A stretch of 64,000 bases of DNA from contig JAQRMW010000041.1 in the NCBI GenBank assembly GCA_028599075.1, positions 1 through 64,000 on the forward strand, read 5' to 3'. Numbering within the stretch: the first letter of the stretch is position 1; each line of letters starts with the position of its first letter. The position numbers and the translations under genes are program-made. This document shows, one piece after another, positions 5,834 through 30,670 of this stretch. This DNA comes from Urechidicola sp. GTDB taxonomy: Bacteria > Bacteroidota > Bacteroidia > Flavobacteriales > Flavobacteriaceae. Under the pieces are notes generated by a model. The model did no database searches, was not told the origin of the DNA, and worked only from the letters and a program-made list of their open reading frames with translations.

Positions 5834-5985
5834 AGTTTATATTTGTGTCTGATTTTTTTGGCGTTTCCCTAGGGGGTCGTGCTATTCGCTTTATCTTTCT
5901 CGTGCTGAATTAAGTTCAGCATCTCAAAAGGATATCGCTTCTATCACTAACGCAGATTTAATCAAAAGAATAGATAGTAATGTCT

Positions 5986-26826: not shown

Positions 26827-27690
26827 TTACAAAATGTGTTTTTGAGCTTTGTATGATGATCTAACTAAAGCACCACTTTCTACGTGTCTAAAGCCCATTT
26901 TCTTTCCAATATCTTCGTATTTTTTAAACTGCTCTGGAGTAATATACTCCATCACTGGTAAGTGTTTTTTACTAGGTTGTAAGTATTGACCAATGGTAAT
27001 GATATCTACATTTACATCGGCTAAATCTTGCATAGACTGTATCACTTCTTCTTCAGTTTCTCCAAGTCCTAACATAATACCAGACTTTGTTCTTCTGATA
27101 CCTTGGTCTTTTAAGTATTTTAGTACGCCTAAACTACGATCGTATTTTGCTTGAATTCTAACTTCGCGAGTCAGCCTTCTAACTGTTTCAAGATTATGCG
27201 AAACTACTTCAGGAGCAACTTCAATAATTCTATCAATATTTTTATGGTCTAATTGAAAATCAGGAATCAACGTTTCTAAAGTCGTTTCAGGATTTGCTCT
27301 TCGAATAGCTTTCACTGTTTCTGCCCAAATAATCGACCCGCCATCTTTTAAATCGTCTCTATCTACTGATGTGATTACAGCATGCTTAATTTTCATCAAC
27401 TTAATAGAACGCGCTACTTTTTCTGGCTCTTCCCATTCAACCGTTTCTGGTCTTCCAGTTTTAACACCACAAAATCCACAAGAACGCGTACAAATATTTC
27501 CTAAAATCATAAAGGTTGCAGTGCCTTCTCCCCAGCATTCACCCATGTTTGGGCAGCTTCCGCTAGTGCAAATGGTATTTAACCCGTAGTTGCTTACAAT
27601 TTCTCTAAGCTCGGTATATTTTTTACCAGTAGGTAATTTTACCCGTAACCATTTGGGTTTTTGTTTTCTGATTGTTGTTGACTCAGCCAT
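26827..27690 (-). CDS. lipA: Lipoyl synthase
   Basis: A 287-residue radical-SAM enzyme. The auxiliary cluster cysteines are C41, C46 and C52 (CTSGSCPNMGECW) and the SAM-cluster cysteines C67, C71 and C74 (CTRSCGFC). The C-terminal RSSYKAQKH contains the Arg-Ser-Ser motif that ligates the sacrificial cluster. It inserts two sulfur atoms into octanoyl-protein and so supplies the cofactor used with LpdA. No lipB is adjacent. Complete. Confidence 0.97.
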   Translation of the reverse strand: MAESTTIRKQKPKWLRVKLPTGKKYTELREIVSNYGLNTICTSGSCPNMGECWGEGTATFMILGNICTRSCGFCGVKTGRPETVEWEEPEKVARSIKLMKIKHAVITSVDRDDLKDGGSIIWAETVKAIRRANPETTLETLIPDFQLDHKNIDRIIEVAPEVVSHNLETVRRLTREVRIQAKYDRSLGVLKYLKDQGIRRTKSGIMLGLGETEEEVIQSMQDLADVNVDIITIGQYLQPSKKHLPVMEYITPEQFKKYEDIGKKMGFRHVESGALVRSSYKAQKHIL

Positions 27691-27785: not shown

Positions 27786-27793
27786 CAAATTTA
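27786..27793 (-). promoter_or_regulatory. Putative -7 box (TAAATTTG) for lipA
   Basis: The box overlaps the stop codon TAA of the upstream Nramp-like gene, giving TAAATTTG then CAGCC on the minus strand, 96 bases before the lipA start. It would allow lipA transcription independent of the upstream operon. Confidence 0.4.
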
Positions 27794-29005
27794 CAAATTC
27801 ATAAGATACCACACACTAAATCCGATTAAGAATAAAATTCCAAAATAACTAAGTATTTTCATTGATAGTGAAGGTCGCCATTCTTTAGGCGTATGTTTTC
27901 CAGAAATCAAAACAAAATTACTGATAGCAAAGAATGGAGCTGATAAAAAGGATAGTATAGTTGCGATTTTAACGATTGTTCCCATTTCTGATTTTAAATA
28001 ATTAAGTATAAAAATAGTGCCAATTGATAAAAGAGAAATCCAAAACCAATACGATTTTTTTATGGTGTTTTTTGAAAGCAAAGATACCACAGAACTCAAG
28101 GCTCTTGGCGATGCGTCCATGGTTGTTAGGGTAGTGCTAAACATTGTTGTAAAAGCTGCAATAGCAATTATTAGATACATCCAATCTCCAATAGCATTTG
28201 TATATAAGGCAATGAGTTGTTGAGCAAATCCTCCTGCGCTTGAACTAAAACTTTCTCCTGTGCCATACATTACCAATACACCTAGTGATAAGAAACATAG
28301 TCCTAAAATTATTGTAAAGACATAACCAATATTAAAATCAGAAATACTTTTTTCTGTACTAAATTCTGGGCTGTCTTTCTTTTTTTCTAATGCCCAAAGA
28401 GAATGAATTACTGATAGATCTAGAGGTGAAGGCATCCAACCTAAAAAAGCAATTAAAAAACCAATTTCTAAACTTCCTTCTGGTAGTATCTGCATAAAAC
28501 TATAAGTAGTTTCACTTCCAAGCAACGCTGCTATGACAGATGTAATAGTCGTAATTGTTAAGATTACAATAATCACTTTCATTAAATTGTCTAATAATTT
28601 ATAACGCCCAATGAGTAATATAAGCACAATAACTATGGTGATGACTAAACTCCATGTTACCGGATTTTCAGTAAGACCAAAGAGGTTTATTGCCAATCCT
28701 GCTGTTACGATTGTTACTGCAGACTGAATTGTAAACATCGTGCAAATTGCCAATATAAAGTAAGTTATTAAAACACCTTTTCCGAGCTTTTTATATCCAT
28801 CAACTAGACTCTCACCTGTAGCCATTGCGTACCGTGGGCCATATTGAAAAAACGGGTATTTAAATAAATGTACTAAAAGTAATGCCCAAACTAATCCAAA
28901 GCCATATTCTGCACCTGCTCTTGTTGACATCACTAAATGAGAGACTCCAATAGAAGCTCCTGCAAACAGGAGTCCAGGACCAAGAGATTTTAATTTTTGA
29001 ATCAT
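27791..29005 (-). CDS. Nramp-related membrane transporter lacking the canonical metal site
   Basis: A 404-residue protein with about eleven membrane helices and the Nramp (LeuT-type) layout. The helix-1 unwound motif, normally DPGN, reads GVSH (residues 20-23 in GASIGVSHLVMSTRAG). The helix-6 motif, normally MPH, reads MPS (191-193 in LGWMPSPLDLS). These residues bind Mn or Fe in canonical Nramp proteins, so the substrate here may differ. It overlaps the ECF sigma gene by 4 bases (ATGA) and is the last gene of the operon. Family membership is firm; manganese or iron transport is not supported by the motifs. Confidence 0.8.
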   Translation of the reverse strand: MIQKLKSLGPGLLFAGASIGVSHLVMSTRAGAEYGFGLVWALLLVHLFKYPFFQYGPRYAMATGESLVDGYKKLGKGVLITYFILAICTMFTIQSAVTIVTAGLAINLFGLTENPVTWSLVITIVIVLILLIGRYKLLDNLMKVIIVILTITTITSVIAALLGSETTYSFMQILPEGSLEIGFLIAFLGWMPSPLDLSVIHSLWALEKKKDSPEFSTEKSISDFNIGYVFTIILGLCFLSLGVLVMYGTGESFSSSAGGFAQQLIALYTNAIGDWMYLIIAIAAFTTMFSTTLTTMDASPRALSSVVSLLSKNTIKKSYWFWISLLSIGTIFILNYLKSEMGTIVKIATILSFLSAPFFAISNFVLISGKHTPKEWRPSLSMKILSYFGILFLIGFSVWYLMNL

Positions 29006-29559
29006 TTCTTAGACTCGATGATTTCAGATAATAATTTTTTAGCACGCATCAAGTTTACTTTTACCGAACTCATAGATTCGTTTAAAGTTGCAGCAATTTC
29101 TTTATAACTCAACTCTTGAAAATAACGCAACTGAATAATTTTTTGCTGCTTGCTATTTAGTTTCTTAATGTGATTTAACAACTCCGCTAAATTCTGTTCA
29201 ATGATAATTTTATCTTCTGGTGATGGTGAGTTATCAGAGATATAAAATGCTTCAGAATTTTCTTTACTAATAGATAAAGTTTCTTTCTTTTGACCACGTA
29301 TCGAATCGATAAAAATATTTTTAGAAATGGTAATTAACCAAGATTTAAATGGATAATTGTCGCTATACAAATCAATTTTATCAAAGGCTTTAGAAAAAGT
29401 TTTGATGGTTATATCTTCAGCTTCATTTTCATTATTGGTTTTGGCAAACTGAAAACGATAGACATCACTCCAATAGGTATTCAACAATTTTTTAAAAGCA
29501 CTTTCTTTACCCAAGCGGGCATTCTCAACAATTTCTTGAATTTCGGGTGTGTTGGTCAT
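29002..29559 (-). CDS. ECF-type RNA polymerase sigma factor
   Basis: A 185-residue sigma-70 family factor of group 4. Region 2 is about residues 20-90 (YRFQFAKTNNENEAEDITIKT, then FKSWLITISKNIFID), and region 4 about 125-180 with the helix-turn-helix LRYFQELSYKEIAATLN. No anti-sigma gene is adjacent: downstream it overlaps the Nramp-like gene and upstream, 7 bases away, is a glycosyltransferase. The translational coupling suggests the transporter or the glycosyltransferase is linked to what it senses, but this is inference. Confidence 0.9.
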   Translation of the reverse strand: MTNTPEIQEIVENARLGKESAFKKLLNTYWSDVYRFQFAKTNNENEAEDITIKTFSKAFDKIDLYSDNYPFKSWLITISKNIFIDSIRGQKKETLSISKENSEAFYISDNSPSPEDKIIIEQNLAELLNHIKKLNSKQQKIIQLRYFQELSYKEIAATLNESMSSVKVNLMRAKKLLSEIIESKK

Positions 29560-29566
29560 AAAAAAC

Positions 29567-30670
29567 TTACCAATGTGTAGGTTTTGAAACTAGATTTTTG
29601 ATAAAGATAAACATTTGAGTCAGAACTAAAAATATTTCCAAAAATGGTGTCCAAAGGACAAGTCCTTTTTCGTTGAGTTTTTTTGATGTTTTTGAAAGAA
29701 TGATATATTGAATAGCAATTCTGACTAAAAATAATCCTAAAACAATTTTCCATTGAAATCCAAAAGAGACTAGGAGTAAGGCTAGAATCCAAAATAATAA
29801 TTGTGAACCATAATACAATCCCAATAAAAATTGATGAATCGGTTTGTAATAATTCGCAGTTGAGACATGCCTTCTTTTTTGATTGCCCCAATCTTTAAAA
29901 GTTGTTTTAGGCTTGGATATTGTAAAACTATTAGGATGTAAAGAAAGCGCACAATTTTCTTTTGTGGCATTTTGATTTACAAACAAATCATCATCACCAG
30001 ATTTTAAGTGTAGGTGATTTTCAAAACCATTGGTGTCAAAAAAAAGTGATTTGGTATAGGCTAAATTCCGACCGACTCCCATATAAGGTAATCCAATGTT
30101 TGCATACGAAAAGTATTGCAATGCAGTCATCAAGGTTTCAAAACGAATGAGTTTGTTGAGCCATGAATTTTTGATACTTCGGTAGGCACCATATCCCAAA
30201 ACAATAGATTTATTAGCTGTAAATTGTTGGCTCATTCCTCTAATCCAGTTATCAGAATTGGGTGTGCAATCAGCATCTGTAAAAAGCAAATGTTCTTGAG
30301 TTGAAGCTTTAATTCCTAAGGAAAGTGCGTATTTCTTAGAGCCTCCGCTTTTGGTTTCTACAACATTTACAATTTTAATTTTTGAAGGATATTTTTCTTT
30401 AAATGATTCCATCACTTCTAGACTATCATCATACGAACAATCATTGATTAATACAATTTCAAAATCAGGATAATTTTGTTGTATGATTTTAGGTAAAAAT
30501 TGTTTAAGATTTTCGGACTCATTACGAGCACAAATCAACACTGAAATAGGAATATCAGAATATTCTTTCTTTGTAGTTTTAAAAGAAGAGAATCGAGAAA
30601 AAATAAAAAGGTAATAGCAAAGTTGAATAATGGTACTTGCAATAAAGAAAGCAAAAACCAGCTGCATCAA
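29567..30670 (-). CDS. Family 2 glycosyltransferase (membrane-bound)
   Basis: A 367-residue GT2 enzyme with an N-terminal membrane helix (about 3-24) and two to three C-terminal helices (about 285-355). The GT-A catalytic core shows SVLICARNE, LINDCSYDDS, the DxD motif as FTDADCTPNS, SGDDDLFVNQ, and a terminal NQKRRHVS in the position of the QxxRW-type motif. It probably extends a lipid-linked or surface glycan at the inner membrane. Its start directly abuts the stop of the small Cys-rich gene. Confidence 0.88.
   Translation of the reverse strand: MMQLVFAFFIASTIIQLCYYLFIFSRFSSFKTTKKEYSDIPISVLICARNESENLKQFLPKIIQQNYPDFEIVLINDCSYDDSLEVMESFKEKYPSKIKIVNVVETKSGGSKKYALSLGIKASTQEHLLFTDADCTPNSDNWIRGMSQQFTANKSIVLGYGAYRSIKNSWLNKLIRFETLMTALQYFSYANIGLPYMGVGRNLAYTKSLFFDTNGFENHLHLKSGDDDLFVNQNATKENCALSLHPNSFTISKPKTTFKDWGNQKRRHVSTANYYKPIHQFLLGLYYGSQLLFWILALLLVSFGFQWKIVLGLFLVRIAIQYIILSKTSKKLNEKGLVLWTPFLEIFLVLTQMFIFIKNLVSKPTHW

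Follow-up and report, generated by a model that had tools for sequence, protein, structure and literature searches.

A widespread clade of Nramp-related proteins with an invariant Gly-x-Ser-His motif at the position of the canonical DPGN metal-binding motif

As summarized in Table 1, the window analyzed herein, a stretch of 64,000 nucleotides from the genome of a marine bacterium, Urechidicola sp., carries an intact open reading frame with an ATG start, the product of which matched the Pfam Nramp family PF01566 (E = 6.7e-14; 52.1 bits, with a gathering cut-off of 29.8). The sequence-only reading of this DNA, which had assigned the gene to the Nramp family, was thus borne out, and no other PF01566 gene was found in the host genome. 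The protein also scored above the cut-off of the NCBIfam model NF037982, named "Nramp family divalent metal transporter", whereas it reached 29.3 bits with TIGR01197, the model of canonical Slc11/Nramp proteins, far under the curated cut-off of 272.5. The clade to which it belongs, described below, behaved likewise, as 76 of the 78 members searched matched PF01566 and all 78 matched NF037982 at E<1e-3.

Table 1. Features at the locus (positions in the window)
Feature	Coordinates	Strand	Evidence or remark
Multi-helix Nramp-related carrier (PF01566; GxSH/GWMP clade; 404 aa)	27791..29005	-	ORF, Pfam, AF2, Foldseek
GVSH codons (residues 20-23), at the DPGN position of canonical Nramps	28937..28948	-	Gapless alignments
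GWMPSPLD codons (residues 189-196), pairing with GATVMPHN	28418..28441	-	HMM, MAFFT, hhalign, predicted helix break
ECF-type sigma-70 factor	29002..29559	-	Pfam; shares 4 bases with the start of the carrier gene
lipA (lipoyl synthase), downstream of the carrier	26827..27690	-	Pfam: Radical_SAM exceeds its cut-off, LIAS_N does not
Family 2 glycosyltransferase, within the same conserved gene order	29567..30670	-	

The order glycosyltransferase > ECF-type sigma factor > carrier > lipA is that of the class I loci, in which the sigma factor lies upstream of the carrier in 59, and lipA downstream of it in 62, of the 64 loci with full flanks. Among 17 carrier-free genomes, nine keep the glycosyltransferase-sigma-lipA arrangement and a tenth retains sigma-lipA, the distance from sigma to lipA being 110-285 bp. 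The carrier gene is therefore present or absent inside an otherwise stable block, and since the sigma-lipA block persists without it, these neighbors give no functional evidence; other subclades of the carrier have different neighbors. Lipoate transport, considered because of lipA and of an lplA-like neighbor at locus L025, was rejected as the sigma-lipA order is kept without the carrier and as the lplA-like gene occurs in only one of the five members of the L025 subclade. In that subclade, an acyl-CoA carboxylase-like gene adjoins the carrier in four of the five members (L026, L203-L206), the lplA-like gene being found in the fifth (L025/L202). Serine dehydratase genes adjacent to the carrier at four loci, three of them in one synteny block with dnaK, were dropped as too few. 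A search for riboswitches near the gene, covering the window and 30 homologous loci, found none, M-box included; one SAM riboswitch was located about 4 kb from the gene at locus L037. Elsewhere in the window, a Flavo-1 RNA (Rfam RF01705) was recognized at 5871-5961 on the minus strand, barely above the gathering score.

The first transmembrane helix of the protein reads GPGLLFAGASIGVSHLVMSTRAGAEYGF, and its GVSH segment occupied exactly the columns of the canonical DPGN motif in a phmmer alignment with DraNramp. The same gapless placement was obtained upon aligning the clade HMM with human DMT1 and EleNRMT and in a MAFFT alignment with the canonical Nramps of Flavobacteriaceae, and in hhalign the IGVSH segment paired without gaps with the IGPGT of the PxpT profile. 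The ligand Asp is accordingly replaced by G20 and the ligand Asn by H23, as the sequence-only reading had noticed. That reading had also considered that DPGN might simply lie displaced but intact at another place in helix 1; this objection fails, because no Asp or Asn was found anywhere in the helix (LGPGLLFAGASIGVSHLVMSTRAGAEYGF).

The other half of the site required a correction of register. With G189-W-M-P-S-P-L-D196 anchored on the preceding Gly, the helix-6 segment paired with GATVMPHN, GTTVVPYN and GTTIAPWM in MAFFT, in HMMER against EleNRMT (PDB ID: 7qia), and in hhalign against the canonical and PxpT profiles, and the break of helix 6 at residues 191-196 in the AF2 model fits the GWMPSPLD/GATVMPHN pairing. 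The Ala three positions before the Met, the Met, the His and the following Asn thereby correspond to W190, S193, L195 and D196, respectively, the Met column being occupied by A, I, T or G in other clade members. The MPH ligands are hence missing as first proposed, but the MPS (residues 191-193) taken as their counterpart, though present in the sequence, lies two columns off, and according to both the alignments and the predicted helix break its M is no retained metal-binding Met. Neither was the TM3 Glu (E134 of DraNramp) found, its position being A96 by MAFFT or T98 by phmmer and acidic in neither register, nor the TM10 Gln, the column of which holds T349; both residues assist in canonical Nramps and EleNRMT. 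In total, all seven positions of the canonical site that were compared have changed, namely the Asp and Asn of helix 1, the Ala, Met and His of helix 6, the Glu of TM3 and the Gln of TM10, and every known Nramp metal ligand is absent from the protein. As a control of the alignment, D55, G58, E133, T224, A227 and Q379 of EleNRMT (PMC8806188) were recovered by MAFFT at the right numbers.

The structure prediction proposed in the sequence-only reading returned an Nramp-type LeuT fold, predicted to be intact with high confidence (AF2 with 78 clade sequences, three rows from a plasmid collection being omitted; pLDDT 92.1, pTM 0.91). The best PDB matches in Foldseek were DraNramp entries (6d91, TM-score 0.82/0.83), followed by DMT1, EleNRMT (0.77), a YcsG model (0.74) and then APC amino-acid carriers (AdiC, 0.62-0.71). 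Helix 1 appeared unbroken in the model; as the canonical Flavobacteriaceae Nramp used as control was weakly predicted (7 sequences, pLDDT 47), this is not taken as a genuine departure from canonical Nramps.

Profile searches among the fetched loci identified 179 sequences besides the window protein that carry the motif, a figure that counts sequences rather than species and includes genes fetched repeatedly (80 were left at 76% identity, plus the window protein). Their helix-1 variants were GVSH (155), GTSH (19), GGSH (4) and GASH (1), so that G-x-S-H, in which only x varies, was found in 180/180 sequences, a conservation of G, S and H far beyond chance. In the helix-6 motif GWMPxxΦ(D/E), G, W and P are invariant, M is present in 179/180 (one M-to-L replacement) and the last position is D or E in all 180. 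Residues 21 and 196 covary, the pairs being V-D (155), T-E (19), G-E (4) and A-E (1) with a single V-E exception; because the tree places only two independent events behind it, this covariation is suggestive at most.

The gene occurs in about 110 of the 151 sampled Flavobacteriaceae genomes, by a hand count of matches at ≥37% identity, and a canonical Nramp in 7 of the 151. Members were also found in other Bacteroidota families and, at 34-37% identity, in records of Neisseria gonorrhoeae, Photobacterium and Pseudoalteromonas. The N. gonorrhoeae member (L172), of the GGSH type, adjoins an apparent lysS; its record, NZ_CP119140.1, was deposited as a plasmid, yet at 2.17 Mb is of chromosome size. 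In a tree of 55 rows, the GxSH sequences (support 100/100), the PxpT group (99/97) and the canonical Nramps (100/100) formed separate clades, EleNRMT being placed next to the last of these (94/81). The GxSH proteins thus represent a monophyletic clade rather than a one-off, apart from canonical Nramp, EleNRMT and PxpT/YcsG; on the tree its unity is well supported, while the relations between the groups are uncertain, several branches being long.

Compared with canonical Slc11/Nramp proteins (MntH, DMT1; DraNramp, PDB ID: 6d91 and 8e60), the window protein shares the predicted fold, the helix layout, the GPG start of helix 1 and the register of helices 1 and 6, but lacks DPGN, MPH, the A/CxxM element, the TM3 Glu and the TM10 Gln, and in the structural alignment its identity is about 14%. 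The canonical Nramps of Flavobacteriaceae (L195-L201) are about 630 aa long, and the C-terminal part of L195 resembles, by eye, a universal-stress-protein domain. Proteins of this kind have already been published: PF01566 members in which diverse residues replace DPGN and MPH have been described as "Nramp-related", most of their groups being uncharacterized (PMC12873925), and such Nramp-related or orphan proteins have been called outgroups (PMC10606218, PMC9606685). The GxSH clade shares their replaced motifs and may coincide with one of the published subgroups. New here are the precise pair of motifs, the correction of the helix-6 register, the distribution of the clade, the empty-site comparison, and the over-annotation by NF037982.

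A further relative is PxpT/YcsG (MntG; "G-motif 3", PMC12873925), which likewise has Gly for the helix-1 Asp and no Met, and which gave the stronger hit of the two profiles tested in hhalign (probability 99.2, E = 7.8e-20), the canonical profile being shallow. The two groups differ in that PxpT has IGPGT/GTTVVPYN and the GxSH clade IGVSH/GWMPxxLD, and in their gene linkage. All 14 sampled IGPGT-type genes of Flavobacteriaceae (L044-L050, L052, L054, L055, L057, L059-L061) directly precede pxpA- and pxpC-like genes, with pxpB recognized in 13, whereas no pxpABC linkage was found beside the compared GxSH genes or within the window, and no PxpA in the host genome. In Corynebacterium glutamicum, growth on 5-oxoproline requires PxpT, which was proposed as the 5-oxoproline carrier (PMC13274462), and the conserved linkage supports 5-oxoproline as the probable cargo of the PxpT group. 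On the other hand, YcsG of Bacillus subtilis, a member of the same group, has been reported and argued to be a Mn2+ importer (PMC10448178).

Considering these observations together, we favor, at somewhat less than an even chance, a small-organic-solute carrier with a rebuilt central site in the Nramp-type LeuT fold. That the protein transports, in which direction, with which coupling ion and that the substrate is organic are matters we infer, while the fold, the clade, the invariant residues and the loss of all known Nramp metal ligands are computed results. The protein would be a secondary carrier working by rocking-bundle alternating access, as fold homology suggests, and its cargo, amino-acid- or organic-acid-like, would bind at the site between helix 1 and helix 6, where backbone groups of G20 would hold it together with the invariant residues S22, H23 and W190; the H23 and D/E196 side chains would probably be the pair that binds a proton or the substrate. 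An organic solute is favored because the helix-1 Gly is common to PxpT, the loss of which blocks growth on 5-oxoproline, and because the helix-1 acid, which holds the cation in all characterized Nramps and NRMTs, is missing. The intact predicted fold and the strict conservation of the site residues (G20, S22, H23, W190 and the acidic residue 196) from Bacteroidota to Neisseria point the same way, and the host genome already encodes MgtE, two ZIPs and FeoB to handle metals. The broader claim that a widespread clade with an invariant Gly-Ser-His/Trp/Asp-or-Glu site carries a non-metal solute, as a second instance, besides PxpT, of the Nramp fold serving organic substrates, is put forward more tentatively still.

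Against the organic-solute reading stand the lack of a substrate-specific gene neighbor and the YcsG report, by which a Gly motif appears compatible with metals. The conserved His and Asp/Glu could moreover form a new metal site, and in this respect a relocated site, in which H23, D/E196 and S22 hold Mn2+, Fe2+ or Zn2+ with a different coordination, is nearly as good an explanation and, though below even, has an appreciable probability. It draws on the invariance of H23 in the position of the Asn ligand, on the unfailing acidity of residue 196, and on the 21/196 covariation, which would fit an acid directed toward helix 1. It would also account for the supply of Mn, since neither a canonical Nramp nor a ZnuA-type binding protein was found in the host genome, leaving the bacterium, in a family with few canonical Nramps, without assigned Mn import. 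However, the Asn following MPH in canonical Nramps, whose column is that of D196, is not known to be a metal ligand; the covariation comprises two events only; and the riboswitch search found no metal riboswitch in the window or the 30 loci.

A magnesium carrier of the NRMT type, a kinship which the sequence-only reading had raised, appears quite improbable. EleNRMT belongs to the same Pfam family, similarly lacks the Asn and Met ligands while keeping the fold, and has an Ala at the Met position as many clade members do. Nevertheless, the NRMT signature DxxG-TxxA/T (PMC8806188) was not found, the window protein having GxxH and W-M-P-S with Gly for the Asp and W190 for Thr224, and the TM3 Glu and Gln379 retained by NRMTs are absent as well. 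In the phylogeny that the same reading had called for, EleNRMT grouped with the canonical Nramps and not with the GxSH clade, albeit on long branches, and the host genome encodes MgtE. The M-box riboswitch is typical, though not universal, of NRMT genes, and none was detected in the window or the 30 loci.

A carrier-like protein that does not transport, acting as a sensor or scaffold, for instance as partner of the overlapping sigma factor, is comparably unlikely: the 4-base overlap and the adjacency kept at 59 of the 64 class I loci would suit it, but no sigma factor was recognized beside the other subclades, on which ground such a partnership was rejected, the sigma factor persists without the carrier, and the full fold with its strictly conserved center speaks against it. 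Least probable is an ordinary Mn/Fe Nramp with a merely misaligned motif, for which only the above-cut-off NCBIfam label argues, against a helix 1 devoid of Asp and Asn, concordant independent gapless alignments, the low TIGR01197 score, and a motif invariant over 180 sequences.

With all ligands replaced, the label of divalent-metal transporter conferred by NF037982 is unsupported, which sustains the earlier objection to a Mn/Fe annotation in part; the label becomes misleading if metal binding has indeed been lost. The further suggestion of the sequence-only reading, that another ion or a solute is transported, may hold. In that case, it would affect a large set of bacterial proteins, spanning the Flavobacteriaceae genomes counted above, other Bacteroidota, Neisseria and marine gammaproteobacteria. 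With few replacement residues, all of them invariant and easily mutated, the clade would also offer a good system for studying how the Nramp fold shifted among transition metals, magnesium and organic solutes; recent Nramp phylogenies have raised this question of substrate change.

Two genomes of the sampled family showed disrupted copies of the gene. At G052:C49:14371-15538, a further GxSH copy has decayed to a pseudogene with several stops, and at G030:C4:78630-88509 the gene is in two halves separated by about 8.7 kb, an arrangement that an insertion could have produced.
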